A stretch of 14,773 bases of DNA from Neisseriaceae bacterium (lineage in GTDB: Bacteria; Pseudomonadota; Gammaproteobacteria; Burkholderiales; UBA11063): positions 1 to 14,773 of the forward strand of contig CANISK010000013.1 of NCBI GenBank assembly GCA_947470205.1, given 5' to 3'. Positions 1-14,773 of this stretch are shown in pieces. The notes below the pieces were generated by a model that saw only the letters and a program-made list of their open reading frames with translations, was not told where the DNA came from and did not search any database. Position numbers and translations under genes: made by a program. Position 1 is the first letter of the stretch, and every line of letters begins with the position of its first letter.

Positions 1-1843
1 ATACATCAATTCCCACCATTTTTCTAATTTTACAATTATTTTTACCTTTGCTATAGCCAGTAACATATTGTATGCCCTGAATGTCAGCATTGGTGATGTT
101 GAATTTTTCCAAACATTGAATTACTGTTTCGTCTTGCTGTGTTACAGATATAAATGATTCTACAAGTGGATGACGGTATGTTGCTTTTTGCTGATTATTC
201 TGAGGTTGTTCGTCGGTTAGTTTATTAATTATATCATTTTTTTCGTACTCCCAAAAATACTCATTAAATTCATCTGATGAAATATTGCTATTGTCTCTTA
301 ATAAACTAATTAAATTAGTTAAAGATAGATCTTGGGCGCCTAAGTTTTTGCATAATGTTTGCAATTGTTCCAACGCAATTTCGCGATCATCCTCAAGAGC
401 TTTGTTGATTATTTGCATTGATGCATGTGTTTGCGAATTCTTAATATATTTCATGAATGTGGATGAATTAGAATCAATATCTTTTGGTAACTGATATTCA
501 TTGTTCTGCTCCTGACAATCTTGAGTCACAGTTTGATCTTGGATGTCATCTTGATTTTTAAATTCCTCTTGATGTTGGATTTGGCTTTGAACGTCAAGCG
601 TTGATTCAGATGTGTGGTTGATTGATTGATCTTGCAAATCTTGTTGCGCAGCTTGAATTTTTATTTCCTCTTGACGTTGTTCTTGATTGTAAATCGTTAA
701 TTCAAGATTATCTTCATGTTGTTTTTGTTGCTCCTGTGTGTTATTTTGTATATTTGTTTGGGCGCTGTCAAGTAATTTTTCTAATTGTGTAAATGGCTCC
801 TCTAATCTACGCCTCAGGGATGCGTTTGAGATAATTTTTTTTATTTGTTTGATTTGATTAGTTTGATAGAGATTGTGATATTTATATGCAATGTGTAGTA
901 CATGATACATATATTTATATATGCCTGCTAAGTAGTACTCCTCTACAGTATTACGATCGTCTTCTTTTATTGTACCTAACATGGTAGAGAGATCTGATTG
1001 CAATGTAGAGATGCATGTAAAAAAATCTTTCAACGCTGGGTATAGATTTTGTAAGTATGAAATAGTTGGACCCCAGGCTGAAAAGTATTGGATTATTTCA
1101 GTGGGTAGCAAAGGATTTTCTTTAATACTTTGGAGTCTACTTGTAAATGCATCTGTAGAATTGCATTCATACTTCACTGTGTTCTCTGAGTCTTCCTTTG
1201 TTATCAAATGTAAAGACCATAGTTGTTCACTGTCTTTCCATATTATGCAATATGTATCTTTTTTTCTAGAAGTCATTATCAAGCGTCCTATTTCGATGGC
1301 TTTGTTGCGTCTGGACTCATCACCTTCTACTATAGAATACTCTTGTTGTCTTATTAGTTCCATTAATTGGTTAAAGGACTGATATAAAGAGCTAGCGGCA
1401 TTTTTTATTTCTTCGTCCCTTATCATGAGTAAGTTGATATTCGAATCGCCTTTACATTGATCGAGGGTTTGCTGATTATATACCTCATTAATCTTTGGGT
1501 AATATAGACTAACATGTTGTGGTAAAGGTTGAATTTTGCACTTGTAAGTACGATTTATTTGTTGAATATCCTTTTTTGTCATCTGAACGGCATTAATATG
1601 GGTGCGGCCTTGCTTAAAGTAATCAGAACATTTTTGTAACAATTCCCTTTGCTGTTGGGATAAATATCCCGCATTGTCTTCGATGTATTCTCCAGAAATA
1701 ATCTTTTGAATGCAAGAAGAGATATCCTCTTCATTTGCGTTTTTTCCGGGGTTGTCCCCTTGAAACATAACGTTTGGTTGATTGGTTTGTGTTGTTTGCT
1801 GTTGTTGACAAGCTAGCAAAGTATTTATTTTGTTGAGTTGCAT
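1..1843 (-). CDS. Q/N-rich hypothetical protein, C-terminus outside the window
   Basis: Reading the minus strand from the ATG at 1843-1841 gives 614 codons without a stop to the left edge, so the gene is partial at its C-terminus. AAGGT lies about 10 nt before the ATG, a usable ribosome binding site. I do not recognise the protein. It starts MQLNKINTLLACQQQQ and shows no signal peptide or obvious membrane segment. Residues about 1-355 look like folded, mostly helical sequence containing Trp and Cys. Residues about 360-450 are very rich in Q, D, E and N with recurring QD/QDQ motifs, likely a coiled coil or disordered linker. A further helical part follows (about 455-614). It is transcribed divergently from nagB. 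The long stop-free frame and protein-like composition make it a real gene. A secreted effector or a structural coiled-coil protein is conceivable, but nothing visible proves either. Confidence 0.85.
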   Translation of the reverse strand, partial: MQLNKINTLLACQQQQTTQTNQPNVMFQGDNPGKNANEEDISSCIQKIISGEYIEDNAGYLSQQQRELLQKCSDYFKQGRTHINAVQMTKKDIQQINRTYKCKIQPLPQHVSLYYPKINEVYNQQTLDQCKGDSNINLLMIRDEEIKNAASSLYQSFNQLMELIRQQEYSIVEGDESRRNKAIEIGRLIMTSRKKDTYCIIWKDSEQLWSLHLITKEDSENTVKYECNSTDAFTSRLQSIKENPLLPTEIIQYFSAWGPTISYLQNLYPALKDFFTCISTLQSDLSTMLGTIKEDDRNTVEEYYLAGIYKYMYHVLHIAYKYHNLYQTNQIKQIKKIISNASLRRRLEEPFTQLEKLLDSAQTNIQNNTQEQQKQHEDNLELTIYNQEQRQEEIKIQAAQQDLQDQSINHTSESTLDVQSQIQHQEEFKNQDDIQDQTVTQDCQEQNNEYQLPKDIDSNSSTFMKYIKNSQTHASMQIINKALEDDREIALEQLQTLCKNLGAQDLSLTNLISLLRDNSNISSDEFNEYFWEYEKNDIINKLTDEQPQNNQQKATYRHPLVESFISVTQQDETVIQCLEKFNITNADIQGIQYVTGYSKGKNNCKIRKMVGIDV

Positions 1844-1868
1844 GAAATAGTACCTTGTAAAAATATTA

Positions 1869-1892
1869 GTATTGATGTTATTTAATCAATAC
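1869..1892. promoter_or_regulatory. Perfect 8-bp inverted repeat in the divergent spacer
   Basis: GTATTGAT (1869-1876) and ATCAATAC (1885-1892) are exact reverse complements separated by 8 nt. They lie about 26-49 nt upstream of the minus-strand start codon, between the divergent genes. It could be an operator for a dimeric regulator or a weak stem in the 5' leader of the leftward gene. It does not match the NagC-type operator as I remember it. In such AT-rich DNA a chance palindrome is also possible. Confidence 0.3.
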
Positions 1893-1951
1893 AATATTGT
1901 ACAGCAAATTAATTAAAAAAATGGTGACAAATTTGTTTCATAAGATGCGCA

Positions 1952-1981
1952 TTGTATATTGTATAATAAAATGCGTATAAT
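1952..1981 (+). promoter_or_regulatory. Candidate sigma-70 promoter for nagB
   Basis: TTGTAT (1952-1957) and a consensus TATAAT (1976-1981) are separated by 18 nt. The predicted start near 1988 leaves a leader of about 66 nt before the preferred nagB start. A second TATAAT at 1962-1967 has no good -35 box at normal spacing. Only the -10 box is perfect and the -35 matches three of six positions, so this is a reasonable but unproven assignment. It probably also drives the hepT-mntA pair and perhaps the transporter downstream. Confidence 0.45.
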
Positions 1982-2054
1982 TTCACTCCAAAATATATAA
2001 ATAATGTATAATTACCAAATAGTCTACATTAAAAATTATTACGAAAGATTATCT

Positions 2055-2867
2055 ATGCGTTTACTAATCACAAATGAATTGATATATAAATGGACGGCAT
2101 ATTATTTATGTAAAAAAATTACACTTGCACACAAAAATTCCAATAAGCCATTTGTATTAGGTTTACCAACTGGTTCAACGCCACTTGGAGTTTACAAAGA
2201 GCTTATCAAATTATACAAAAATGGACAATTGAGTTTCACCAATGTAGTTACCTTTAATATGGACGAATATGTTGGATTATCCAAGGAGCACCCACAATCT
2301 TATAATTACTACATGCATCATCATTTTTTTGATCACGTAGATATTGACAGAAAAAATGTACATATTTTAAATGGTAAAGCTAAAAATCTAGAAAAAGAAT
2401 GTTTGCAGTTTGAGAAAAAAATTGCTGATTGTGGTGGTATAGATATCATGTTGGGCGGGGTTGGTGTAGATGGACATATTGCATTTAACGAGCCAGGCTC
2501 TTCATTGAGTTCATTAACTCGCATTAAAACGTTAAATCATTCTACAATAGTTGCCAATTCAAGATTTTTTGATAATGATATTTCAAAAACACCATATTTG
2601 GCACTAACAATGGGAATACAAACCATTCTCAATGCTAGAGAAATTATCATTCTTGCAGCTGGAACGCAAAAATCCCTCGCAGTACATCAGGCCATAGAAG
2701 GTGGCATTTCTAGTATGTGCCCGATCACAGCACTGCAAATGCATAATAAAGCTGTGATAGTATGTGATAAATTAGCCACGCACGAATTAAAAGTAAAGAC
2801 AATTGATTACTTTGAGGATATTATTGATGAATATTCAGACATGTTAAAATACGTTAAAAATATTTAA
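2055..2867 (+). CDS. nagB: Glucosamine-6-phosphate deaminase NagB
   Basis: Cytoplasmic enzyme converting glucosamine-6-phosphate to fructose-6-phosphate and ammonia, the last step of amino-sugar catabolism. From the ATG at 2055 the protein has 270 residues (E. coli NagB: 266) and begins MRLLITNELIYKW like the family. The ATG at 2004 would add 17 residues absent from homologues, and a GAAAG precedes 2055, so the shorter start is preferred. Visible landmarks are the phosphate loop LGLPTGSTP (35-43), FNMDEY with catalytic Asp70, and GVDGHIAFNEP with Asp139, His141 and Glu146. The allosteric GlcNAc-6-phosphate site residues known in E. coli appear kept: the serine after NEPG, Arg156, Lys158, Thr159 and Tyr252. 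Activation by GlcNAc-6-phosphate is therefore plausible. No nagA, nagK or PTS gene is adjacent. The hepT gene starts 22 nt after the stop, so the two may share a transcript. Confidence 0.96.
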   Translation: MRLLITNELIYKWTAYYLCKKITLAHKNSNKPFVLGLPTGSTPLGVYKELIKLYKNGQLSFTNVVTFNMDEYVGLSKEHPQSYNYYMHHHFFDHVDIDRKNVHILNGKAKNLEKECLQFEKKIADCGGIDIMLGGVGVDGHIAFNEPGSSLSSLTRIKTLNHSTIVANSRFFDNDISKTPYLALTMGIQTILNAREIIILAAGTQKSLAVHQAIEGGISSMCPITALQMHNKAVIVCDKLATHELKVKTIDYFEDIIDEYSDMLKYVKNI

Positions 2868-2889
2868 TATTATTTAAAGATAAAATACA

Positions 2890-3312
2890 ATGAATACAAA
2901 TAAAGACATTAGATGGCATCAGAGATTTAATAATTATAAACAAGCGATTTTATTATTAAAAGAAGCCTGTGATGAAGACTTAAATGGATATAACGATTTA
3001 GAAAAAGAAGGTTTAATCCAACGTTTTGAATTTACGTTAGAACTTGCATGGAAGGTATTAAAAGACCGCATGGAATACGATAGCATTACTCTAGATATTG
3101 TTTCTCCAAAGAGCATAATAAGAGAAGCCTATATAAGTAAATACATTAATAACCCAGAAATTTGGTTTGATATGATTGACAGCAGAAACTCCATGAGTCA
3201 TGTTTACGATAGAACAAGTTTCGATGAAATTGTGCAAAAAGTTAAAATGGAATATGTAAATGTTTTGCATGAATTTTATCTCAAAAATGCAAAATTGGTA
3301 AATCAAAAATGA
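2890..3312 (+). CDS. hepT: HEPN-domain toxin, HepT-like (HI0074 family)
   Basis: A 140-residue helical protein of the family first annotated as nucleotidyltransferase substrate-binding protein (HI0074), now known to include HEPN RNase toxins of type VII toxin-antitoxin systems. Family segments are RFEFTLELAWKVLKDRM (45-61), SPKSIIREAY (72-81) and WFDMIDSRNSMSHVYD (92-107). The last contains the HEPN active-site motif R99-N100-x3-H104 and the exact Rx4HxY arrangement with Tyr106. In characterised HepT-MntA pairs, the tyrosine of this motif is the one adenylylated by the antitoxin. The toxin gene precedes the antitoxin gene, as usual, and its TGA overlaps the next ATG (ATGA), implying translational coupling. 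The gap to nagB is only 22 nt, with AAAGA as a weak ribosome binding site. Function as an RNase toxin is inferred from family and motif. Confidence 0.88.
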   Translation: MNTNKDIRWHQRFNNYKQAILLLKEACDEDLNGYNDLEKEGLIQRFEFTLELAWKVLKDRMEYDSITLDIVSPKSIIREAYISKYINNPEIWFDMIDSRNSMSHVYDRTSFDEIVQKVKMEYVNVLHEFYLKNAKLVNQK

Positions 3313-4301
3313 GTAAATTTGATGGGATGTTTGGGTTATCTAATCAAGATATTTTTTTACTAAGAGGTATTTTTGCAAAATATCCATTGGTGCATATTGT
3401 AAAAATATATGGTTCACGAGCTAAAGGCAATTATCATACTCGTAGTGACATTGATCTTGTGATAATCGAAAAAGATGAAATCAAAATCCCACAATCTACA
3501 GTTTATGATATATTATCTAAACTTGAAGAAAGCAGTATAATATATAAAATTGATTTACAAATTTATAATAATATTAACAATATTGAACTCAAAGAACATA
3601 TCGATAGAATAGGGCAAATTTTTTATACAAAGGATATACAAACTATTCAAATTCACAGTAATCGCGATAATCCAATTTTTGATAAAAAAGATATAGAAAA
3701 TATTAATAAAATACGTAACACTTTTATAATTGCTAAGCAGAAATATTTTATATTAGAATATATTAATAAACCAACCATATATTCTCAAGTACGTAATTTA
3801 CTTTGTGAATCCTTATTTAGAAATATTATCTTAGAAATTTATGCAATTTTATATGATACTGACAATAGAACTATTGCAAATAAAACACTAAACAAATTAA
3901 CCAAACACATCAAAAATAATGAGGTTGTATTTCAATTTGTTTCGCAAATTAGTTATGACAATAGTACAGATATAGATACTCACCATGAAAACCTATACGT
4001 TTCATTTAATGGGTCAAGCGATGCCGCTGCCAATTCTCATTGTAACATCAATATAAATATTACAGATACACGAAATAAATTTAAAAAATACCGCGATAAA
4101 GTATTGGCTCATAAAGATAATGGTCAATATGATTATCATTTCTCGCAAAATGATATAAAAAATCTCTTAGATGAATCAGAAAAGATTATTTATTTATTGT
4201 ATAAAGTTAGCCAACCAACCACTTCGGTGTGTTTTGATTTTGAAAGAACAATACTAAAACCCCTTAAATTTGAATGTGATAATTTTTTTAATACTAAATA
4301 A
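3309..4301 (+). CDS. mntA: MntA-like nucleotidyltransferase with a C-terminal HEPN (AbiU2-like) extension
   Basis: Residues about 1-110 form a minimal nucleotidyltransferase (MNT) domain: IYGSRAKG...SDIDLVI gives an exact GSx10DxD motif (Gly35, Ser36, Asp47, Asp49), and KIDLQIY supplies the third carboxylate, Asp82. Known MntA antitoxins use this site to attach AMP units to HepT and silence it. Minimal MNT proteins are about 100-140 residues; this one has 330. Residues about 125-200 (VRNLLCESLFRNIILEIY...D...LNKLTKHI) and 255-300 (KKYRDKVLAHKD, then a long helix ending IIYLLYKV) resemble AbiU2-type HEPN domains. Arg262 and His268 form an R-x5-H motif within the HEPN RNase range. The 330-residue frame is uninterrupted. 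The MNT role is secure; the second HEPN domain is inferred from pattern. Base composition looks even more AT-rich than nagB, compatible with separate acquisition. Confidence 0.85.
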   Translation: MSKFDGMFGLSNQDIFLLRGIFAKYPLVHIVKIYGSRAKGNYHTRSDIDLVIIEKDEIKIPQSTVYDILSKLEESSIIYKIDLQIYNNINNIELKEHIDRIGQIFYTKDIQTIQIHSNRDNPIFDKKDIENINKIRNTFIIAKQKYFILEYINKPTIYSQVRNLLCESLFRNIILEIYAILYDTDNRTIANKTLNKLTKHIKNNEVVFQFVSQISYDNSTDIDTHHENLYVSFNGSSDAAANSHCNININITDTRNKFKKYRDKVLAHKDNGQYDYHFSQNDIKNLLDESEKIIYLLYKVSQPTTSVCFDFERTILKPLKFECDNFFNTK

Positions 4302-4347
4302 AAACAAAAACGCACTTGCACAATAATATATGAGTAAAGGTGTATTT

Positions 4348-5313
4348 ATGAGTTTATTTATTGATAACTTACTCCATCCAACTATACTATTTTTTATTTT
4401 AGGCCTAGTGGTTTCTTTGTTGAAAAGCGACTTAGATGTACCAGACCAAATCAGTAAATTTTTATCTATATATCTATTAATGTCAATTGGTTTAAATAGT
4501 GGATATGAACTTGGCGTGATTGGAATATCAATATCAGTTGCCAAATTTTTTGTAGTGTGTATTTTATTTGCAGTGCTTATTCCTACCATCGGATATTTTA
4601 CTTTACGATATAAGCATAATGTCGCAGACTCTAGTCTCATAGCGGCTTGCTACGGTTCTGTTAGTGCGGTTACTTTTCTTGCTGCAACTAGTTTTTTGAT
4701 AGATAACGAAATTAAATTTGATGGATATATCACAACAGCTCTTGGTCTTATGGAGTTTCCCGCTATTATTGTGGGGCTTATTTTTTATAAGTTGTTTACT
4801 CATGCATACATAAATAAAAAACAACTTGTCAAATATATTATCCAGCATACATTGCTAGATTCATCAATAGTGTTGTTATTGGGCAGTATAGCAATTGGTT
4901 ACATTAGCGGTATGGATGGCAAAGAAGAAATGATGCCATTTATTAGCAATATCTTCAAAGGAATGTTGGCATTGTATTTGTTGGATATTGGTATCAAAGC
5001 CGGTCGTCATTTACCACAGATTGTCAATTCCTCCTTTTTTCTAATTATATTTGCAATAGTTGTCCCGATAATTAATGGTATTATTGGTATTTTAGTATCT
5101 CATTTTATACTTCATTTTGATATTGGTAACTCACTTTTAGTCACTATGTTATTTGCTAGCGCCTCATATCTTGTGGTTCCTTCTTCAATGAGTATATCCA
5201 TTCCAGATGCAAACTCAAATACAGCAGTAACAATTACTTTAGTGATTACATTCACTTTTAATGTCTTATTGGCAATGCCAGTTTACTATTTTATTTTAGA
5301 AAAATTACAATAA
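4348..5313 (+). CDS. SbtA-family sodium-dependent bicarbonate permease
   Basis: Inner-membrane transporter of the SbtA family, whose cyanobacterial members import bicarbonate with sodium. From the ATG at 4348 it has 321 residues, the usual family length, with about ten hydrophobic helices in two similar halves. Family signatures seen are AACYGSVSAVTF in the first half, LGLMEFPAIIVGL, LYLLDIGIKAG, and ASASYLVVPSSMSISIPDAN near the C-terminus. The ATG at 4330 would add six residues, but AAAGG at 4336-4340 sits 7 nt before 4348, so the second ATG is preferred. It starts 46 nt after the mntA stop. No SbtB (PII-like regulator) gene follows; a repeat-bearing spacer does. Family membership is fairly firm. 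Bicarbonate as substrate is inferred, because many heterotrophic homologues are untested. Confidence 0.87.
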   Translation: MSLFIDNLLHPTILFFILGLVVSLLKSDLDVPDQISKFLSIYLLMSIGLNSGYELGVIGISISVAKFFVVCILFAVLIPTIGYFTLRYKHNVADSSLIAACYGSVSAVTFLAATSFLIDNEIKFDGYITTALGLMEFPAIIVGLIFYKLFTHAYINKKQLVKYIIQHTLLDSSIVLLLGSIAIGYISGMDGKEEMMPFISNIFKGMLALYLLDIGIKAGRHLPQIVNSSFFLIIFAIVVPIINGIIGILVSHFILHFDIGNSLLVTMLFASASYLVVPSSMSISIPDANSNTAVTITLVITFTFNVLLAMPVYYFILEKLQ

Positions 5314-5377
5314 CTACAACCATCATGATCCTAAATTTTATTTAGAACGCCAGTTTAACATAAGAAATTATAAAAAT

Positions 5378-5503
5378 CAGTCATTGCGAACCCTGATTTA
5401 TCAGGGTGTGGCAATCCCATACGCAATAATACGTAATATGTAACACATGAGCTTCAATCATTGAGATTGCCACGCTATGATAAATCATAGCTCGCAATGA
5501 CTG
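5378..5503. repeat. 126-nt palindromic cruciform element, copy 1
   Basis: Terminal inverted repeats CAGTCATTGCGA (5378-5389) and TCGCAATGACTG (5492-5503) are perfect complements. Inside them GTGGCAATCCCA (5408-5419) pairs with TGAGATTGCCAC (5462-5473) with one mismatch. Between these paired blocks each arm holds its own 18-nt hairpin: ACCCTGATTTATCAGGGT on the left and GCTATGATAAATCATAGC on the right. The fold would be a long stem with two side hairpins. The element fills most of the spacer between the SbtA-family gene and acs and may also serve as a transcript end or processing structure. It has no coding capacity, so it is a REP/MITE-like non-autonomous repeat. The same architecture recurs at 13741-13863. 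Confidence 0.93.
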
Positions 5504-5542
5504 TATTCCTTGGTATCTATATTTTAGAAAGTTTATATTATT

Positions 5543-7528
5543 ATGCCATCATTAGCTAATGATAATTTTATCAATAACCATACCACATATTCCATCACCA
5601 CATCGTTTATAAATCAGGCGAATATCAATCAAGTAAAATTTGATGAGTTAAATCAGAAAGCACACAATAATTATGAAGAATTTTGGGGAGAGTTGGCGCA
5701 TACAAAAATCTCATGGCATAAACCCTTCACAACTACTTTAAATAACACCAAGGCGCCATTTTACAAATGGTTTGAGGATGGAGTTTTAAATGTATCATAC
5801 AATTGTTTAGATAGACATTTGAGATCCAAAGCTCATAAAACAGCAATCATATTTGAAGCAGATGATGGGGCTATTACAAAAATTACTTATCAAGAGCTTC
5901 ACACCAAAGTATGCCAATTTGCCAATGGGCTAAAGTCCATTGGGGTAAAAAGCGGTGATCGGGTGATCGTGTATATGAATAATAGCATTGAGGCAATTAT
6001 TGCCATGCAGTCAATTGCACGAATTGGCGCAATTCATTCTGTAGTATTTGGAGGGTTTTCGTCAATTGCATTGGCAGATCGGATAATCGATGCAAAAGCT
6101 GAATATATTATTACTGTAAATGGATATCACAGGGGTGGTAAATTAATTGAATTAAAAAAAATGGTAGATGAAGCACTTATCAATATAGATAAAAATATTC
6201 ATCAAATAAAACACACAATCATACATAACCGTACCCCAGATTTAAATACTAAGATCACACCACATCAAGACATATGGTGGAATGATGTTGTTGATAATCA
6301 AGATAAAGAATGCATACCAGAATGGGTAACATCGGAGCACCCATTATTTATCTTATATACATCAGGCTCTACTGGTAAACCAAAGGGTATATTACATACA
6401 AGTGGTGGTTATTTGCTAGGTACCATAGTGACAATGGAGTGGGTTTTTGATTACAAAGACACAGATTGCTACTGGTGTACAGCAGATGTAGGATGGATAA
6501 CAGGGCATTCATATATTTGCTATGGTCCACTAGCGGTTGGGGCTACACAAGTTATATTTGAAGGGATACCCACATATCCTAGCGCGGATAGATTTTGGCA
6601 GATGATAGAACGACACAAGGTCACTACATTTTATACTGCACCTACCGCGATTAGAAATCTCATTAAATTAGGTGCCACATTGCCAAAAAACCACAACTTA
6701 TCATCTTTAAGGTTGTTAGGAAGTGTGGGGGAGCCTATAAATCCCGAAGCGTGGAAGTGGTATTATGAAGTGGTTGGCAATAGCAAGTGCCCGATAGTAG
6801 ACACATGGTGGCAAACCGAAACTGGATGTAATATGTTGTCTCCCATACCGGGCGTACAAGCATTAAAACCAGGGTCTTGTGTCTCACCCATTCCTGGTAT
6901 CATGGCCGTAATAATTGATGAAAATGGCAACAGCATTAAACCCGGGGAAAGTGGTTATTTAGTAATCACAAAACCATTTCCATCTCAATTGCGTACTATC
7001 TGGAATGCGGACGATAAATTCATCAAAACTTATTATCCACAAGATATCGCAGATGGTAGGTATTACATAGCTGGAGACAGTGCACAGCTTGATACAGATG
7101 GTTACTTTTGGATTTTAGGGCGGATAGATGATGTGTTGAATGTATCTGGGCATCGCTTAGGTACAATGGAGATCGAATCAGCAATAACAATGCATCCAAG
7201 CATAGCAGAGGCAGCTGTAGTTGGTAAACCTCATGCAATAAAAGGCGAAGGGATTTTTGCCTTTGTAGTTTGTAAAAAAGATAGTTCAATAAAAGATTTG
7301 TCTCAAGATGATAAAACTACACTCACTAATCAGATAAATGCTATTATTAGTAAAGAAATTGGAGCGATAGCTAAAATAGATGAAATAAAATTTGTAGAGG
7401 GGTTGCCCAAGACGAGATCTGGTAAAATTATGCGCCGTTTACTACGAAATATAGTGCGAGGAGAGGAAATTACACAAGATATTTCAACGCTAGAAAACCC
7501 AGCGATAATAAACACTCTGAAGTTATAA
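5543..7528 (+). CDS. acs: Acetyl-CoA synthetase (AMP-forming)
   Basis: Cytoplasmic enzyme that activates acetate with ATP and CoA through an acetyl-adenylate. It has 661 residues (E. coli Acs: 652). Visible motifs are the ATP loop [11 protein letters not shown] (272-282), [10 protein letters not shown] with the tryptophan pair Trp422/Trp423 that restricts the pocket to acetate, [27 protein letters not shown] in the hinge and C-terminal domain, and [11 protein letters not shown] with Lys628. Lys628 corresponds to the lysine that is catalytic for adenylation and reversibly acetylated in characterised Acs enzymes. The N-terminal alignment supports this ATG: FWGE occurs near residue 48, close to its place in E. 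coli. The ribosome binding site is weak. The transporter gene starts 11 nt after the stop. With AceE nearby, acetyl-CoA is supplied from both acetate and pyruvate. Confidence 0.97.
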
Positions 7529-7539
7529 GGATAAAGTCA

Positions 7540-8898
7540 ATGAAAAAAAATTTAAATTTCATGGCACTAGTATTTTTATTTTTTGGATGGGGATTTATTA
7601 CAGTTTTAAATGACCTACTCACGCCAATTTTAAAATCCGCCTTTATGCTTAGTTATTTTGAGGCAAACTTTGTCTCATTTGCATTTTTTATTGCTTATTT
7701 TATTGGCGGATTATTATATTTTATTTCAAATATAATTGGGATTAAATTTTTTACCAATTTAGGCTACAGAGGACTTATTTTACTGGGGCTCAAATTATCT
7801 GGTTTTGGTTGTCTTGTTTTTGTGGGTGCTACAATTTTTAAAAGCTATTTAATATTTTTATTAGGGCTGTTTTCCATTGGCTTTGGTTTTATGTTTATTC
7901 AGATTGCCGCCAATCCATTGGTATTAATATCTGGAGATGCAAATACAGGAGCAGCGAGACTTAATATTGCACAGGGGTTTAATTCATTGGCAACCACGTT
8001 AGCGCCAATTATAGGTGCGATAGTGTTTTACAACATGCTTCATGTGGAATCAAATTACTCAGCACTCAAATATCCATACTTTATATTTAGTATCTGCTTT
8101 TTTGCATTAGCCTATTTTGTAGTTAAATTTTTGACTACCGACCAAACAAGCATTACCATCAGTGCCACAAATAAACCATATGCATTAAACCATTTAAATC
8201 TTCTTTTTGGAGCGATTGCAATCTTTTTCTATGTAGGTTCTGAGGTTGGTATTGGTGCAAATTTTATTGCTTTGGTTAAATCTGGCAAAATAATTCAAGC
8301 ATCAGGAAATGTTGCAAGTGAATTACTTGCATTTTATTGGGGTGGGGCAATGATTGGTAGATTTTTAGGGGGTATTGCATTAAATAACAAATATAAAACG
8401 TCAACCAAGCTAATTTATATGATACTCACAGCGGTTGCTCTTACTATTTTAATTTTACAAATTAGCCAAAGTAATGTCAATTTAAAATATTATATTTTAC
8501 ACGAAATTTTAGCGATCGTTATACTATTGTTTGCTAAAAATTCTCGCCGCACTTTATTATTATTTGCATTTGTAAATATTATCAATTTGATAATTGGTAT
8601 CCATCTTGGAAATCACCTATTTGCAATTTGGTCAATCATCTCAATCGGAATATTTAATTCAATAATGTGGCCAAACATATTTGATCTAGCGATAGATGGA
8701 TTAGGTGAATATAAAGAACAAGGCTCCTCATTGCTAATTATGATGATATTAGGTGGAGCGATAATGCCAATATTACAAGGGCACATTGCAGATAAATTTG
8801 ATATATTAACATCATATTATGTGCCAATTATTGGTTACGTATATATTTTATTATACAGTATATTTTATAGCAAAAAAACTATAAAATTGATCAATTAA
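7540..8898 (+). CDS. MFS sugar transporter, FucP/GluP family
   Basis: A 452-residue, 12-helix inner-membrane transporter of the fucose:proton symporter family, which includes FucP (fucose), GluP (glucose/galactose) and NagP (N-acetylglucosamine). Signatures include FFGWGFITVLNDLLTP (helix 1), SYFEANFVSFAFFIAYF, AANPLVLISG, RLNIAQGFNSLATTLAP, FFYVGSEVGIGANF at the start of the second half, YWGGAMIGRFLGG, and SIMWPNIFDLAIDGLG followed by LGGAIMPILQGHIAD. AAGGATAAAG just before the ATG is a good ribosome binding site. It lies 11 nt after acs and 34 nt before glmS, so all three are probably cotranscribed. The substrate cannot be read from the sequence. Proximity to glmS and nagB favours a hexose or GlcNAc, which would need a kinase not encoded here. 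Confidence 0.9.
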   Translation: MKKNLNFMALVFLFFGWGFITVLNDLLTPILKSAFMLSYFEANFVSFAFFIAYFIGGLLYFISNIIGIKFFTNLGYRGLILLGLKLSGFGCLVFVGATIFKSYLIFLLGLFSIGFGFMFIQIAANPLVLISGDANTGAARLNIAQGFNSLATTLAPIIGAIVFYNMLHVESNYSALKYPYFIFSICFFALAYFVVKFLTTDQTSITISATNKPYALNHLNLLFGAIAIFFYVGSEVGIGANFIALVKSGKIIQASGNVASELLAFYWGGAMIGRFLGGIALNNKYKTSTKLIYMILTAVALTILILQISQSNVNLKYYILHEILAIVILLFAKNSRRTLLLFAFVNIINLIIGIHLGNHLFAIWSIISIGIFNSIMWPNIFDLAIDGLGEYKEQGSSLLIMMILGGAIMPILQGHIADKFDILTSYYVPIIGYVYILLYSIFYSKKTIKLIN

Positions 8899-8932
8899 TC
8901 AAAATTAATTCATACGAGGAGGCAAGATAAAT

Positions 8933-10771
8933 ATGTGTGGAATAGTAGGTGGAGTTAGTGAAAGAAACGTGGTATCAGTTATCCTAGAAGGTCTCCATAG
9001 ACTGGAATATCGCGGGTATGATTCAGTTGGAATAGCTGTTATTGATGAGACACAAAATCTCATCAGAATGCGTTCGGTTAATCGGGTGACAACCCTCATG
9101 GAAGACTGCAAGTCCCATAATTTTAAGGGTAATATAGGCATAGGTCATACCAGATGGGCAACTCATGGGGGAGTTACAAAGCACAATGCACATCCGCACT
9201 TTTCTCATAATACCGTAGCGGTAGTGCATAATGGGATTATAGAAAACTATTCACAAAAAAAAATTGAATTAAAGGCGTTGGGCTATGAATTTGTATCAGA
9301 AACTGATACTGAGGTGATAGCGCATCTTGTTCATTTTCATCATATAAAAAAGCATAAAAGTTTACTACAATCAATACAAGATATTACAAAAGAGCTAGTT
9401 GGTGGATATGCATTGGGAGTAATCAGTCAAACCAGCCCCAATGAAATTATCTGTATCAGTAATAAAGCACCATTAACACTCGGGGTGGGTATTAATGAGA
9501 TGTATTTCGCATCAGATGTAATGGCATTATTGCCTGTAACCAATAAAATAATCCATTTGGAAGATGGCGATATCGCGGTACTTAAATTAAACGAATATAG
9601 TATATATAATCACACTGGAGAAAAAATAAAGAGGTCTCCCGTTACAAGCTCCTTGTCTGCACTTGGCGCTGAGCTTGGTAAGTATAGACACTTTATGCAA
9701 AAAGAAATCTTTGAGCAACCACTTGCAATATCAGATACATTGCAGTATCTAGGCACCACATTTGATGCAGATAAATTTGGTGCAAAAGCCATTGACATAT
9801 TCAAACAAATTAACTGTATTCAAATTATCGCTTGTGGTACGAGCTATAATGCTGGTATGGTTGCCAAATATTGGTTTGAAGAGATAGTCAATTTCCCGTG
9901 TAGTGTAGATATCGCAAGTGAGTATAGATATAAAAACGTGATTGTGAACCATAATCAGTTATTTATATTTATTTCACAATCTGGAGAAACCGCAGATACA
10001 TTAGCATGCATTAAGCATATCCATGAATTAAATTTACATAATACATTAGCAATTTGCAATGTGGCAGAAAGTAGCATTACAAGACTATCTACCTTGAATA
10101 TAATCACAAAAGCAGGGGTGGAGATAGGTGTTGCATCCACTAAAGCATTTTCCACACAGCTTATCACATTACTTTATTTATCTTGTACGTTAGCCAAAAT
10201 ACATAATAAACTTTCAAAAGACACAGAAGAAGAATTAGTAAACCAATTTAACACCCTACCAGCAATTATCACAAAAACTTTATCTATTGAAACTGAAATG
10301 AAACGCATCGCACAAGATCTAAAACACAAAGAACATTTGTTGTTGATTGGGAGAAATGTGATGTACCCAATTGCCCTTGAAGGTGCGCTCAAAATTAAAG
10401 AGATATCATACATACATGCAGAAAGTTATGCATCTGGCGAATTAAAACACGGCCCACTGTCTCTTATAGATAAAAATATGCCAATAATATGCCTTGCACC
10501 ATCAAAGATTTTATACGATAAAACCATGTCAAATATTGAGGAAGTATTGGCAAGACATGGAATAGTCTACATTTTAACGGATAACCCTACACATAATTTA
10601 CCAGATTGTCATATGAATACGGTTATAGATATACCAAGTAACACCTCAAAATATTTATTACCCATTATATACGTAGTACCACTTCAACTACTTGCCTATC
10701 ACACAGCGCTTGCTAAAGGCACAGATGTGGACAAACCAAGAAATTTAGCAAAGAGTGTGACTGTTGAGTAA
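8933..10771 (+). CDS. glmS: Glutamine--fructose-6-phosphate aminotransferase (isomerizing)
   Basis: Makes glucosamine-6-phosphate from fructose-6-phosphate and glutamine, the entry step to UDP-GlcNAc, peptidoglycan and LPS. Full length at 612 residues (E. coli: 609). The N-terminal glutaminase domain (about 1-240) has Cys2, which becomes the N-terminal nucleophile after Met removal, HTRWATHG (72-79), Asn100-Gly101 in HNGIIENY, and Asp125. Two SIS sugar-isomerase domains follow: CGTSYNAG (301-308) and SQSGETADT (348-356), then ALKIKEIS with Glu490 and GELKHGPL with His506. The C-tail RNLAKSVTVE with Lys607 is intact. GAGGAGG at 8916-8922 is a strong ribosome binding site. The upstream gap is 34 nt, too short for a Gram-positive-type glmS ribozyme. 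Opposes NagB, encoded about 6 kb upstream. Confidence 0.98.
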   Translation: MCGIVGGVSERNVVSVILEGLHRLEYRGYDSVGIAVIDETQNLIRMRSVNRVTTLMEDCKSHNFKGNIGIGHTRWATHGGVTKHNAHPHFSHNTVAVVHNGIIENYSQKKIELKALGYEFVSETDTEVIAHLVHFHHIKKHKSLLQSIQDITKELVGGYALGVISQTSPNEIICISNKAPLTLGVGINEMYFASDVMALLPVTNKIIHLEDGDIAVLKLNEYSIYNHTGEKIKRSPVTSSLSALGAELGKYRHFMQKEIFEQPLAISDTLQYLGTTFDADKFGAKAIDIFKQINCIQIIACGTSYNAGMVAKYWFEEIVNFPCSVDIASEYRYKNVIVNHNQLFIFISQSGETADTLACIKHIHELNLHNTLAICNVAESSITRLSTLNIITKAGVEIGVASTKAFSTQLITLLYLSCTLAKIHNKLSKDTEEELVNQFNTLPAIITKTLSIETEMKRIAQDLKHKEHLLLIGRNVMYPIALEGALKIKEISYIHAESYASGELKHGPLSLIDKNMPIICLAPSKILYDKTMSNIEEVLARHGIVYILTDNPTHNLPDCHMNTVIDIPSNTSKYLLPIIYVVPLQLLAYHTALAKGTDVDKPRNLAKSVTVE

Positions 10772-10840
10772 AAATCACTCTGTATGGTCTCATTTAATGT
10801 TAAAATCACACCTATAAACGCTAGTTCGACATTAATAAAC

Positions 10841-10964
10841 TGTCATCCCCTAAGCCGGCAATTGTCATTCCCGCGTAGGCTCTTGTCATTCCCGCGTAGG
10901 CTCTTGTCATTCCCGCGTAGGCTCTTGTCATTCCCGCGTAGGCTCTTGTCATTCCCGCGTAGGC
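10841..10964. repeat. 21-nt tandem repeat (four full copies plus a partial)
   Basis: Units beginning TTGTCATTCCCGCGTAGGC start at 10862, 10883, 10904, 10925 and 10946. The first four are identical 21-mers, each ending TC; the fifth stops after GGC at 10964 and runs into the hairpin downstream. A diverged 22-nt relative beginning TGTCATCCCC lies at 10841-10862. Each unit is the left half of the REP-like hairpin that follows, so the array looks like expansion of one half of a palindrome by slippage or unequal exchange. It lies between glmS and aceE and is GC-richer than its surroundings. Identical copies imply recent expansion and probable copy-number variation between strains. Confidence 0.95.
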
Positions 10965-10998
10965 GGGAATCCAGTTAAAACAATGAGAGCATGGATTC
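10951..10998. repeat. REP-like hairpin with degenerate second arm
   Basis: ATTCCCGCGTAGGCGGGAAT (10951-10970) is a perfect palindrome with an 8-bp GC-rich stem and a 4-nt loop. GAATCCA (10967-10973) is matched by TGGATTC (10992-10998) across an 18-nt spacer. Widespread proteobacterial repeats of this kind have two such hairpin arms; here the right arm appears to have decayed. It may end glmS transcripts, though no T-run follows, so it is not a typical intrinsic terminator. Confidence 0.75.
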
Positions 10999-11045
10999 GA
11001 GATTATGAAAGATATCTAGCATAAAAAAATATTTTGGGGATTTAA

Positions 11046-13724
11046 ATGAATAACCAACCAACAATAGATGCATTACAAATAAAAGAGTGGGAAGAATCTA
11101 TAGATAATGTAATAGATTATAACGGTGTAGATACCGCTCGTTTTATTATTAACCGTATTGCAGATCGTGTACGTGAAACCACTGGGGAGCGAATTTTTAA
11201 CGAAACAAACACAGATTACATCAACACCATTCCAGTAGAAAAAGAACACGTCTACCCAGGTGATAAAATGTTGGAAGCAAAGCTCCAAGCGATGATCCGT
11301 TGGAATGCAACTGCAATGGTGTTAAAAGCAAATAAGATTAGTAGTGAGCTAGGTGGTCATATCGCATCTTATGCTTCTTCATCTTCATTGTATGAGGTTG
11401 GATTTAATCATTTTTGGAAAGCGCCAGATGAATCCTCCCATGGAGACATGGTATTTTTTCAAGGGCACTCATCTCCGGGTATTTATGCGAGAAGTTTTCT
11501 TGAGGGTAGGTTGTCTGAGGATGAGCTCATAAACTTTCGTCAAGAGGCATATAAAAAAGGTTTATCATCATATCCTCACCCTTGGCTTATGCCAAACTAT
11601 TGGCAAGTGCCGACTGTATCTATGGGACTTGGTCCTTTAATGGCAATATATCAAGCACGGTTTATGAAATATATGGGAGATAGAAATCTTGCCGATATTA
11701 CTCACCGTAAAGTCTGGTGTTTTGTGGGTGATGGTGAAACCTCAGAACCAGAAACGCTTGGCAATATTCATATCGCATCGAGAGAGGCATTAGATAACCT
11801 CATATTTGTGATAAATTGCAATTTACAACGCCTAGACGGGCCAGTAAATGGTAACGGTAAAATCATTCAAGAAATGGAAGGGTTATTTGCTGGGGCAGGC
11901 TGGAAAGTAATCAAAGTTATTTGGGGTAGTGGCTGGGATAGACTTTTATTAAAAGATAAAACTGGTAAACTTAAACAACTAATGATGGAAACGGTAGACG
12001 GTGAGTATCAAACTTATCGGGCGAAAGATGGAAAGTTTATCCGTGAAAACTTTTTTGGTAAATTTCAAGAAACTAGAGCTTTAGTTCAAGATATGACTGA
12101 TGAAGATATATGGAGACTAACACGCGGTGGGCATGATATAGATAAAATATATTCCGCATATTATGAGGCGGTGAATAATCCACAAAAAAAACCAGTGGTG
12201 ATTTTAGCCAAAACAATCAAAGGGTATGGCATGACTGGTGAAGGTGAGTCGCAAAATGTCGCCCATCAACAAAAGAAGCTCTCAAAAGAGGCATTGCTTA
12301 AAATTTGTAATAAATTTGATATCCCACTTGCAAATGAAGAATTAGACGAATTGCCATTTTTAAAACCCAAAAAAGACAGTAAAGAATATGAATATTTACA
12401 TAGCATGCGAGAGAAACTCGGTGGATATTACCCAGTAAGAAAACCAATTACAAGCCACATCCAGCTACCACCGCTTAATGCATTTGAGAGCTTACTAAAA
12501 GACACCAAAGAACGAGAGCTATCAACCACCATGATATTTGTTCGTATGTTAAATATCCTGCTTAAAGATAAAGAAATCGGGAAAATAATTGTACCAATAG
12601 TTCCAGATGAGTCTCGTACTTTTGGTATGGAGGGGATGTTTAGGCAACTTGGCATATGGTCTCATGTAGGACAAAAATATATCCCAGAAGATGCAGGGCA
12701 GCTGATGTTTTACAAAGAAGACGTCCATGGTCAAATCTTTCAAGAAGGTATAAATGAGGCAGGAGCTATGTCCACATGGATTGCATCTGCTACAAGTTAT
12801 GCTAATCACGGAGTGGTAACCATTCCATTTTATATTTATTACTCTATGTTTGGTTTTCAACGAATCGGAGACTTAGCATGGGCAGCAGGAGATATGCGTT
12901 CCCGCGGCTTTCTAATTGGCGCTACATCAGGACGCACGACATTAAATGGTGAAGGTTTGCAGCATGAAGATGGGCATAGCCACATACAAGCCGGTCTCAT
13001 CCCAAATTGTAAAAGCTATGACCCATCATTCTCATATGAATTGGTGATCATAATAAGGCATGGTTTACATGAAATGTACGTAGAAAATAAAGACACATTT
13101 TATTATGTAACTGTAATGAATGAAAACTATTCACACCCAGCGATGCCGGCGGAAGTGGAGCTTGACATTATAAAAGGTTGTTATTTATTTAAAACATTTG
13201 ATTCCATAGCACAATCAAAAAATACCTTAAAAGTAAATTTGCTTGGTAGTGGTACAATAATGCGTGAAGTTATAAAAGCTGGTGAAATATTATCCACCAA
13301 ATTCAACATAGAAGTAAACATATTTGGAGTAACATCGTTTAACGAAATCTATCGAGATGGGATAAGTGTTACTCGTTACAACACACTAAATGCTACCAAA
13401 AAACCACAAATACCGTTTGTCACTAAAAAGCTATCCAAGACACAAGCAACGCTCACGGTGGCTGCTACAGATTACATCAGAAATTATGCAAATCAAATCA
13501 GAGAATATGTTCCACATGATTACATAACCCTTGGCACAGATGGTTTTGGTCGCTCAGACTATAGGGCAACCCTCAGAGACTTTTTTGAAGTAAATAGCAA
13601 ATATATCGTGATATCAACTTTATATGGTCTATTAAAACAAAAACAAATCCCCGCAAGTGTTTATGAAGCCGCCATCAAAGAATACGAAATCGATACACAC
13701 AAACCAAACCCTTGGGAAGTTTAG
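11046..13724 (+). CDS. aceE: Pyruvate dehydrogenase E1 component, homodimeric type
   Basis: Thiamine-diphosphate enzyme that decarboxylates pyruvate and passes the acetyl group to the lipoyl domain of E2, committing pyruvate to acetyl-CoA. It has 892 residues (E. coli AceE: 887) and aligns from end to end from memory. The ThDP/Mg motif is G228-D229-G230-E231 through INCN (Asn257, Asn259). His407 in NVAHQQKK and Glu571 in QEGINEAGA match the E. coli active-site His407 and Glu571. SGRTTLNGEGLQHEDGHSHI and LGTDGFGRSDYR are also conserved. GGGGA at 11036-11040, 5 nt before the ATG, is a good ribosome binding site. Unusually, neither aceF nor lpd follows; a repeat and an opposing gene come next. 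It is separated from glmS by 274 nt and probably has its own promoter, which I could not identify. Confidence 0.98.
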   Translation: MNNQPTIDALQIKEWEESIDNVIDYNGVDTARFIINRIADRVRETTGERIFNETNTDYINTIPVEKEHVYPGDKMLEAKLQAMIRWNATAMVLKANKISSELGGHIASYASSSSLYEVGFNHFWKAPDESSHGDMVFFQGHSSPGIYARSFLEGRLSEDELINFRQEAYKKGLSSYPHPWLMPNYWQVPTVSMGLGPLMAIYQARFMKYMGDRNLADITHRKVWCFVGDGETSEPETLGNIHIASREALDNLIFVINCNLQRLDGPVNGNGKIIQEMEGLFAGAGWKVIKVIWGSGWDRLLLKDKTGKLKQLMMETVDGEYQTYRAKDGKFIRENFFGKFQETRALVQDMTDEDIWRLTRGGHDIDKIYSAYYEAVNNPQKKPVVILAKTIKGYGMTGEGESQNVAHQQKKLSKEALLKICNKFDIPLANEELDELPFLKPKKDSKEYEYLHSMREKLGGYYPVRKPITSHIQLPPLNAFESLLKDTKERELSTTMIFVRMLNILLKDKEIGKIIVPIVPDESRTFGMEGMFRQLGIWSHVGQKYIPEDAGQLMFYKEDVHGQIFQEGINEAGAMSTWIASATSYANHGVVTIPFYIYYSMFGFQRIGDLAWAAGDMRSRGFLIGATSGRTTLNGEGLQHEDGHSHIQAGLIPNCKSYDPSFSYELVIIIRHGLHEMYVENKDTFYYVTVMNENYSHPAMPAEVELDIIKGCYLFKTFDSIAQSKNTLKVNLLGSGTIMREVIKAGEILSTKFNIEVNIFGVTSFNEIYRDGISVTRYNTLNATKKPQIPFVTKKLSKTQATLTVAATDYIRNYANQIREYVPHDYITLGTDGFGRSDYRATLRDFFEVNSKYIVISTLYGLLKQKQIPASVYEAAIKEYEIDTHKPNPWEV

Positions 13725-13740
13725 TTTTAGATTACAAGCA

Positions 13741-13863
13741 CAGTCATTGCGAGGCTTGTTTACAAGCCGTGGCAATCCCACACGCAATAAAGTGCAACAT
13801 TTAACACGAAACATCAATCATTGAGATTGCCACACCCTGATAAATCAGGGTTCGCAATGACTG
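13741..13863. repeat. 123-nt palindromic cruciform element, copy 2
   Basis: Same ends and orientation as the copy at 5378-5503: CAGTCATTGCGA (13741-13752), GTGGCAATCCCA (13769-13780), TGAGATTGCCAC (13822-13833) and TCGCAATGACTG (13852-13863). The central part, including ACGCAATAA and CAATCATTGAG, is also shared. The side hairpins differ: the left is GGCTTGTTTACAAGCC, while the right is ACCCTGATAAATCAGGGT, the hairpin type found in the left arm of copy 1. It lies between the convergent aceE and right-end genes, where it could act as a bidirectional transcript barrier. Confidence 0.93.
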
Positions 13864-13936
13864 TGTTTGATGGTTTTTATATCAAAATACTTATGTATAA
13901 CGATATGAACTTGATTGGGAATCCATGTTCCTCTTC

Positions 13937-14773
13937 TTATTTTTTAGAAGGATACACTATTTGTGACGTTCCAAATCTTTGCAATATTTTACCTGTATCA
14001 TAAAAATTTTGCTTTTTATTTGCAGTTGGTATCTTTTTTTGTAATTTATTATTTGTTGATAAGTGTGTGTTTTGAGGCAGATTTTTTATATCATTATTTA
14101 AGTCGTCGAATTTACTCAATTTCAATTTTGTTTGTACATCCTGATGTTCTTGCATCAAGTTTGGAAAATCCAATTGTTTATCATATACAGGAATAGCGCG
14201 CTTATCATCCTGAAGCCTTGCTTTTAATGTTGTGTTGTTATCTTTCATTGGCGATATTGTATTATTAAATGGTTTGCATGTTGAATAATCGCCATGTCTT
14301 ATTTTTATCATTTGTCGATTACAAAAATTGGTCTTATGTTTTTGCGCTTCCTCTTGTGGAATTTCTTTGAATCCCTTATCATTGGGTTTTTTATCATTAA
14401 GTTTTGGTGTTATTGAAGCATTGTTTGTATTTTGTGATTTTGGTTCTTGTGGATTTGTTCTTAACGGTTGTGGATGATTAGATGGAGTAGTGTCTGATTT
14501 TGGAGTGTTGAATAAATTGCGTTTTTGTTGTTGCGGTTGATTTATTGGGGATTCATTTTTTTTGAGATATTTTTGTAAAGCTTCTATTTTATTGGCACTA
14601 TCACTTGTAAATAAAGTATTCGTAATTCCTCCTTGTTGAATCTTAAGCTCGTTAAATATTGGATGATTATCTATTAAAGTATTTAAAATTGTGCGATATT
14701 CCCAATCTGTCAATTTAATATTTTCATTTCCACCTTGAGCTTTTGTAATCAATCTTTTTAGATCAGCTCCCAT
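13937..14773 (-). CDS. Hypothetical Q/N/K-rich protein, start at or beyond the window edge
   Basis: A 278-codon minus-strand frame ends with TAA at 13939-13937. Its first codon in view is the ATG at 14773-14771, exactly at the edge, so the true start may lie further out. I do not recognise the protein. Residues 1-70 (MGADLKRLITKAQGG..., DWEYRTILNTLIDNHPIF, a helix ending LQKYLKK) look folded. From about residue 72 to the end it is rich in N, Q, K, P, S and T, with few hydrophobics, and is likely disordered. There is no signal peptide or membrane segment. In composition it resembles the Q/N-rich protein at the left edge, also on the minus strand, but I saw no shared motif. It converges on aceE across a repeat element. 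A host-directed or surface-associated role is speculation. Confidence 0.75.
   Translation of the reverse strand: MGADLKRLITKAQGGNENIKLTDWEYRTILNTLIDNHPIFNELKIQQGGITNTLFTSDSANKIEALQKYLKKNESPINQPQQQKRNLFNTPKSDTTPSNHPQPLRTNPQEPKSQNTNNASITPKLNDKKPNDKGFKEIPQEEAQKHKTNFCNRQMIKIRHGDYSTCKPFNNTISPMKDNNTTLKARLQDDKRAIPVYDKQLDFPNLMQEHQDVQTKLKLSKFDDLNNDIKNLPQNTHLSTNNKLQKKIPTANKKQNFYDTGKILQRFGTSQIVYPSKK

Follow-up and report, generated by a model that had tools for sequence, protein, structure and literature searches.

A putative type VII HepT–MntA operon whose antitoxin extends into an AbiU2-type HEPN domain

The hepT–mntA operon and its surroundings

What might explain why an antitoxin enzyme of the MntA type carries at its C-terminus a second HEPN domain, of the AbiU2 type, beside the HEPN toxin that it is expected to control? 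The operon lies on contig C13 of a draft genome of a Neisseriaceae bacterium (1.43 Mb, 197 contigs, 87.88% complete), and positions 1 to 14,773 of this contig are the window analysed here. The coordinates of both open reading frames, 2890-3312 for hepT and 3309-4301 for the fusion gene, were confirmed exactly on the forward strand, and the original prediction of an exact Rx4HxY motif in the toxin, and of an exact GSx10DxD motif in a partner of 330 residues, was borne out. The hepT gene (2890..3312) encodes a class I HEPN toxin of 140 residues that matches PF08780 (E 1.7e-36) and scores above the TIGR01987 cut-off. Its RX4HXY motif is R99-NSMS-H104-V-Y106 (RNSMSHVY), and R99, H104, Y106 and Q44 are invariant, and E47 nearly so, across the 11 HepT rows of alignment A7. 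The partner is a protein of 330 residues read in a single frame; the longest stop-free run in the other five frames of 3309-4301 is 65 codons, so that the 330-codon frame is not due to chance. Its MNT (MntA) domain, residues 1-110 (3309..3638), has the motif G35-S36-x10-D47-I-D49, a Polbeta match (PF18765, residues 20-109, E 6.2e-15) and a PF01909 score of 26.9 bits against a cut-off of 21, although it scores 31.7 bits with the MntA model NF047752, below the cut-off of 60.

Class I HEPN-MNT systems have been defined by a PF08780 or PF01934 toxin with RX4HXY and an adjoining MNT protein (PF01909) with GSX10DXD (PMC7641770; this and the other papers are cited from those portions of their text that were available). 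Both parts of that definition are found here, which supports reading the operon as a class I HEPN-MNT (type VII) toxin-antitoxin system, a putative assignment from sequence. What sets it apart as a variant is size: the same source describes MNTs as smaller than 150 amino acids, a general remark outside the definition, and the fusion at 330 exceeds this. The stop of hepT and the start of the fusion gene overlap in ATGA (3309..3312), which makes it likely that the two genes are translationally coupled.

Downstream lies an sbt-like transporter gene (4330..5313, forward strand, PF05982), the third gene of a block (2890-5313) that is flanked in the window by nagB and acs. A nagB gene is present in 16 of the 23 genomes of the genus, this one included. 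At six of the 16 other nagB loci examined, acs comes next on the same strand, the gap to its first possible start being 10-50 bases in five loci and 252 in one; a single locus has an MFS gene instead, and neither gene was found within about 1.5 kb of nagB in the remaining nine. The sbt gene was found in two of the 23 genomes, again including this one. The simplest reading of these gene orders is that hepT, the fusion gene and sbt were inserted between nagB and acs, jointly or stepwise, but loss of the three from the relatives, rather than insertion here, is conceivable as well. The remaining Pfam-matched neighbours in the window are metabolic or transport genes, with no defence island or phage-defence neighbourhood among them, and tRNA and Rfam (gathering threshold) scans of the window were both empty.

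Elsewhere in the window there is a perfect tandem array at 10862-10964 (4.9 copies of a 21-base unit), and the sbt-acs intergenic region (5314-5542) contains a sequence that by eye resembles an inverted repeat and whose two ends read TCATTGCGA and TCGCAATGA. On the minus strand a long open frame at 1-1843 runs past the window end (628 stop-free codons in bases 1-1900), and another, of 278 codons up to the window end, occupies 13937-14773; in the latter N, Q and K are, by eye, frequent, and Pfam gave no match at E 0.01.

The AbiU2-type half of the fusion

The MNT domain is followed by a linker, residues 111-122 (3639..3674; pLDDT below 50 at 111-116), and by an AbiU2-type HEPN domain, residues 123-330 (3675..4301), identified by profile and alignment. 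The score with PF18734 (HEPN_AbiU2) is 28.3 bits for the whole protein and 29.7 for the C-terminal part alone, narrowly above the curated cut-off of 26.8. Residues 112-330 are 44-48% identical to the stand-alone proteins P0116-P0118 (E 2.6e-45 to 2.4e-40), and the C-terminus aligns over 86-88% of length to these complete proteins of 219-220 residues. A profile search widened the unfused relatives to eight (P0116-P0123, 161-311 residues), of which P0120, P0122 and P0123 score under the PF18734 cut-off. These eight and the AbiU2 part of the fusion make up alignment A3, with nine rows and 25 invariant columns that include E167, R171, N172, R262, H268, D275 and Y276. On this alignment, the C-terminal part of the fusion is a whole, formerly separate protein. 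The Rx4-6H motif of the AbiU2 family takes the form R262-x5-H268, present in all nine rows, and a motif of this type can be found by eye and pattern search, unaligned, in 15 of 21 other PF18734 loci. The prediction had placed an AbiU2-like HEPN domain with this arginine and histidine on the antitoxin, and both the family assignment and the conservation of the two residues agree with it. Neither PADLOC nor NCBIfam gave a match to the C-terminal part alone, and the single PDB sequence match to A3, at E 0.12, was taken as chance.

In the AlphaFold model (mean pLDDT 83.7) the fusion consists of two domains, the second with helices at 126-152, 162-182, 189-203, 251-268 (the motif helix, with R262 and H268), 280-301 and 311-329 and with beta strands within 207-249. 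R262 and H268 had been expected to lie together, and in this full model they share one helix; in a model of the domain only, the helix ends at 266 and leaves H268 just beyond it. As to the expected HEPN fold, the predicted domain is a helical bundle with a likeness to HEPN structures, but generic bundles match it at least as well.

Could the AbiU2 part be made on its own, or be the product of a faulty assembly? By eye, the stand-alone proteins have their start methionine at the column of P122 of the fusion, where there is no start codon, and the frame contains no ATG, GTG, TTG or CTG between codon 52 and codon 265. Lacking a usual start, the domain would be made only in fused form, and its separate translation from such a start is ruled out. 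The draft state of the genome leaves a slight chance that an error in sequencing or binning brought two genes together. That is extremely improbable, however: the linker reads through with no frameshift or stop, the GC content is even across the join (0.258 vs 0.247), and the protein cluster lists two contigs, possibly of the same assembly.

The prediction had further proposed that the MNT domain might modify both HEPN domains; one enzyme would then restrain two RNases. The nearest conserved tyrosine past the motif, Y276, sits in the loop that follows the motif helix and could serve as an acceptor of AMP. Beyond this tyrosine the proposal found no support, and AMPylation of the AbiU2 part now appears very improbable, because that part is without RX4HXY and the eight AbiU2 rows, although they lack an MNT domain, conserve Y276 just as well.

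Rarity and divergence of the fusion

No second MNT-AbiU2 fusion was found among 5.8 billion proteins, 23 genomes of the genus and 80 HepT loci of named genomes, the protein searches being of a kind that requires shared 5-residue words and similar length and that distant fusions may escape. Among 114 whole-protein matches the fusion itself (P0002) is the only one labelled MNT and AbiU2, and the other 113 cover the MNT part only (coverage 21-48%, Pfam labels). There was likewise no second fusion among four matches to residues 112-330 or nine to alignment A1, P0002 counted in both; P0122, a candidate at 311 residues, contains an internal insertion but no MNT domain. Pattern scans of viral contigs and genome contigs returned no relatives, and none of P0118 were found in plasmids and phages. 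Alignment A3 at E 1e-5 matched only the fusion's own genome among 300 genomes of the order and 369 of the class. Within the genus, alignment A1 at E 0.01 matched the fusion's own genome and two others of the 23, G008 through a piece and G009 through a weak, partial match (E 0.0056). The piece in G008 (L017:1114-1640) is a seemingly broken AbiU2-like gene, with an ORF of 126 residues that contains KYRHKILAHK and with matching pieces upstream across a stop.

Genome searches gave 21 matches besides the window's own, of which 19 loci were examined (L002-L020) and two left out. An MNT is present in 18 of these, L017 being the nineteenth. In 11 of the 18 it is an unfused ORF of 57-114 residues (those of L010 and L011 are fragments, and L012 lies outside the genus), and in seven, one of them in the window's own genome, it is fused to Methylase_S. 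Unfused MntA ORFs of 100-114 residues adjoin hepT at eight loci of the genus. Among named genomes a HepT scan gave at least 534 relatives, and 78 of the best 80 loci, those examined, have an MNT match. The MNT ORFs at these loci are of at most 150 residues in 72 cases, of 151-250 in three and longer in four, and AbiU2 is in none of the four longest: L087 and L090 are MNT-Methylase_S fusions, L086 runs into a ketoacyl-synthase-like region, and L074 is, judged from its match position, an over-long start call rather than a fusion. Starting from the other half, PF18734 at E 1e-4 matched 14 genomes in the order (300 searched) and 10 in the phylum (398 searched), with the fusion's own genome in both sets and one other shared. 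The 21 other PF18734 loci, with flanks of about 1.5 kb, contain no MntA-like tblastn match at E 0.01, which rules out a broad MNT-AbiU2 partnership. The literature searched, for the most part without subscription papers, contains in its available text no report of such a fusion. The component parts are known already; their joining is new to the searches made, and is seen in one draft genome.

A single case invites the view that the fusion is an accident, in which mntA lost its stop and a neighbouring abiU2 gene is now a decaying passenger. The AbiU2 domain of the fusion keeps 34 of the 51 positions (67%) that are invariant in the eight unfused rows and has changed at 17, whereas the same leave-one-out count gives 78-100% of 29-41 positions for the other rows, a count that favours closely related rows. 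Four positions at 157-161 are altered, the C-terminal tail is different, and the domain has an end branch of 1.1 where the median is 0.25 (P0123 is at 1.04). These changes and the branch length speak for altered or relaxed constraint and would suit decay. A comparable one-off is L086:4389-5762, in a Chlorobiota draft genome, where one frame joins MntA to the ketoacyl-synthase-like region, possibly a stop-loss fusion of mntA. However, the end branches of HepT (1.69 vs a median of 0.39, with two genus rows at 1.58 and 1.70) and of MNT (2.62 vs 0.82, with one genus row at 2.16) are long too, in trees that compare distant paralogues rather than rates within one lineage and in which the placement of long rows is unsure. 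The whole module is thus divergent, and decay specific to AbiU2 is ruled out as the sole cause of its long branch. The extension has also remained open, R262 and H268 are kept, and the fold is predicted fairly confidently, so that an accident of this kind seems unlikely.

Possible roles and known systems

MNT enzymes move AMP onto the tyrosine of RX4HXY and so silence HepT (PMC7641770, PMC11586414). The explanation that we favour, at a probability just under one half, is that MntA AMPylates Y106 of HepT while the antitoxin carries AbiU2 as a tethered second effector that is normally silent, in a type VII operon to which an abiU2-type gene has been joined. A formerly separate gene would have been joined in frame at the 3' end of mntA; the MNT domain, by analogy and given the intact motifs, would pass AMP from ATP to Y106 and keep HepT silent; and the AbiU2 part would be an RNase-type HEPN effector, itself silent until a signal of infection or stress. 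In other MNTs helix alpha4 docks on HepT; AbiU2 would take its place, and if AbiU2 were lost or blocked the control of HepT would be upset too. One polypeptide would then link two RNase-type responses. That the effector would be silent until triggered is suggested by L. lactis AbiU2, one of the genes without inhibitory effect on E. coli growth (PMC3985639). An N-terminal MNT on another defence module, Methylase_S, is a recurrent arrangement and supports this explanation; against it stand the occurrence in one genome, the changed invariant positions, the long AbiU2 branch and the neighbourhood free of defence genes.

An alternative is that the AbiU2 domain only docks or regulates, as a stand-in for alpha4, binding the HepT dimer and aiding AMPylation while its RNase site is idle. 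In S. oneidensis and A. flos-aquae alpha4 of MNT provides a second docking site on HEPN, and the L. pneumophila MNT has no alpha4 and a relatively low modification efficiency (PMC11586414). The predicted MNT fold here resembles that of L. pneumophila, again without alpha4, and the domain ends where that protein ends, so that AbiU2 begins at the point where alpha4 would come next. HEPN domains fused to MNT are, moreover, typically without predicted catalytic residues, the interaction being exapted for substrate binding or regulation (PMC3710099). In the L. pneumophila HEPN, Q44 and E47 with Mg2+ have been proposed as the RNase site, and R98 and H103 of RX4HXY are reported to lie outside it (PMC11586414). 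The motif arginine and histidine thus need not build an RNase site, a kept R-x5-H is no proof of RNase activity, and this result takes weight from the effector reading and adds it to docking; no RNase assay of any AbiU2 appears in the available text of the literature searched. On the other side, the unfused MntA ORFs beside hepT in the genus indicate that a stand-in for alpha4 is not required, and it is because R262 and H268 are kept that an effector is preferred and a purely docking role considered doubtful. It would be more elaborate, and is distinctly unlikely, for a single polypeptide to combine the parts of antitoxin, effector and guard: the MNT domain would AMPylate HepT while AbiU2, a phage-triggered RNase, docks on HepT, and an invader that blocked or removed AbiU2 would free HepT, a fail-safe of two RNases.

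If AbiU2 is a tethered effector, the module, which joins an antitoxin enzyme to an RNase-like domain of a phage-defence type, may tie two defences together. AbiU2 is little studied in the literature searched, where three papers mention it, and a natural fusion with an enzyme whose mechanism is known offers a handle. Should HepT control and AbiU2 activity prove coupled, this would show the merging of toxin-antitoxin pairs with abortive-infection effectors.

Among solved structures, the sequences of both proteins come closest to the type VII HEPN and MNT of L. pneumophila (PDB 8xdj/8xeh/8xeo). Its HEPN, the closest solved relative, is AMPylated at Y105 (PMC11586414), and its proposed RNase residues Q44 and E47 are also found in the window's HepT; its MNT chain, of 108 residues, stops where the linker and the AbiU2 domain start in the fusion. 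HepT and MntA of S. oneidensis (SO_3166/SO_3165) likewise pair RX4HXY with GSX10DXD (PMC7641770), but there the MntA chain has 139 residues and includes alpha4, unlike the 330-residue fusion. The stand-alone AbiU2 proteins correspond to the C-terminal part over nearly its full length and in the motif, and have no MNT. AbiU2 has been listed as a motif-bearing family found in operons with Sel1-repeat genes, restriction-modification genes and the HEPN family Bxe_C0808, with no MNT fusion in the available text of that survey (PMC3710099), and the window departs from this. Single-chain HEPN-MNT proteins (P0016, P0030, P0031 and others) combine both kinds of domain in one chain, as here, but in the order HEPN-MNT and with a PF08780-type HEPN; the three named keep RX4HXY, contrary to the general statement in that survey on MNT-fused HEPNs. 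The MNT-HsdS proteins have an N-terminal MntA on a defence protein with hepT upstream, as here, although MntA is joined there to a type I restriction specificity subunit (Methylase_S) rather than to a HEPN. By eye and Pfam labels, they make up 101 of the 114 whole-protein matches, and the seven found among the loci L002-L020 (on contig C66 of the window's own genome, L002:942-2982, and at L003, L007, L013, L014, L018 and L019) have hepT adjoining in six, it being undetected at L013. The frequency of MNT-HsdS fusions, together with the AbiU2 case, suggests that MntA has repeatedly been joined to defence proteins, an arrangement that would make the loss of the defence protein costly.
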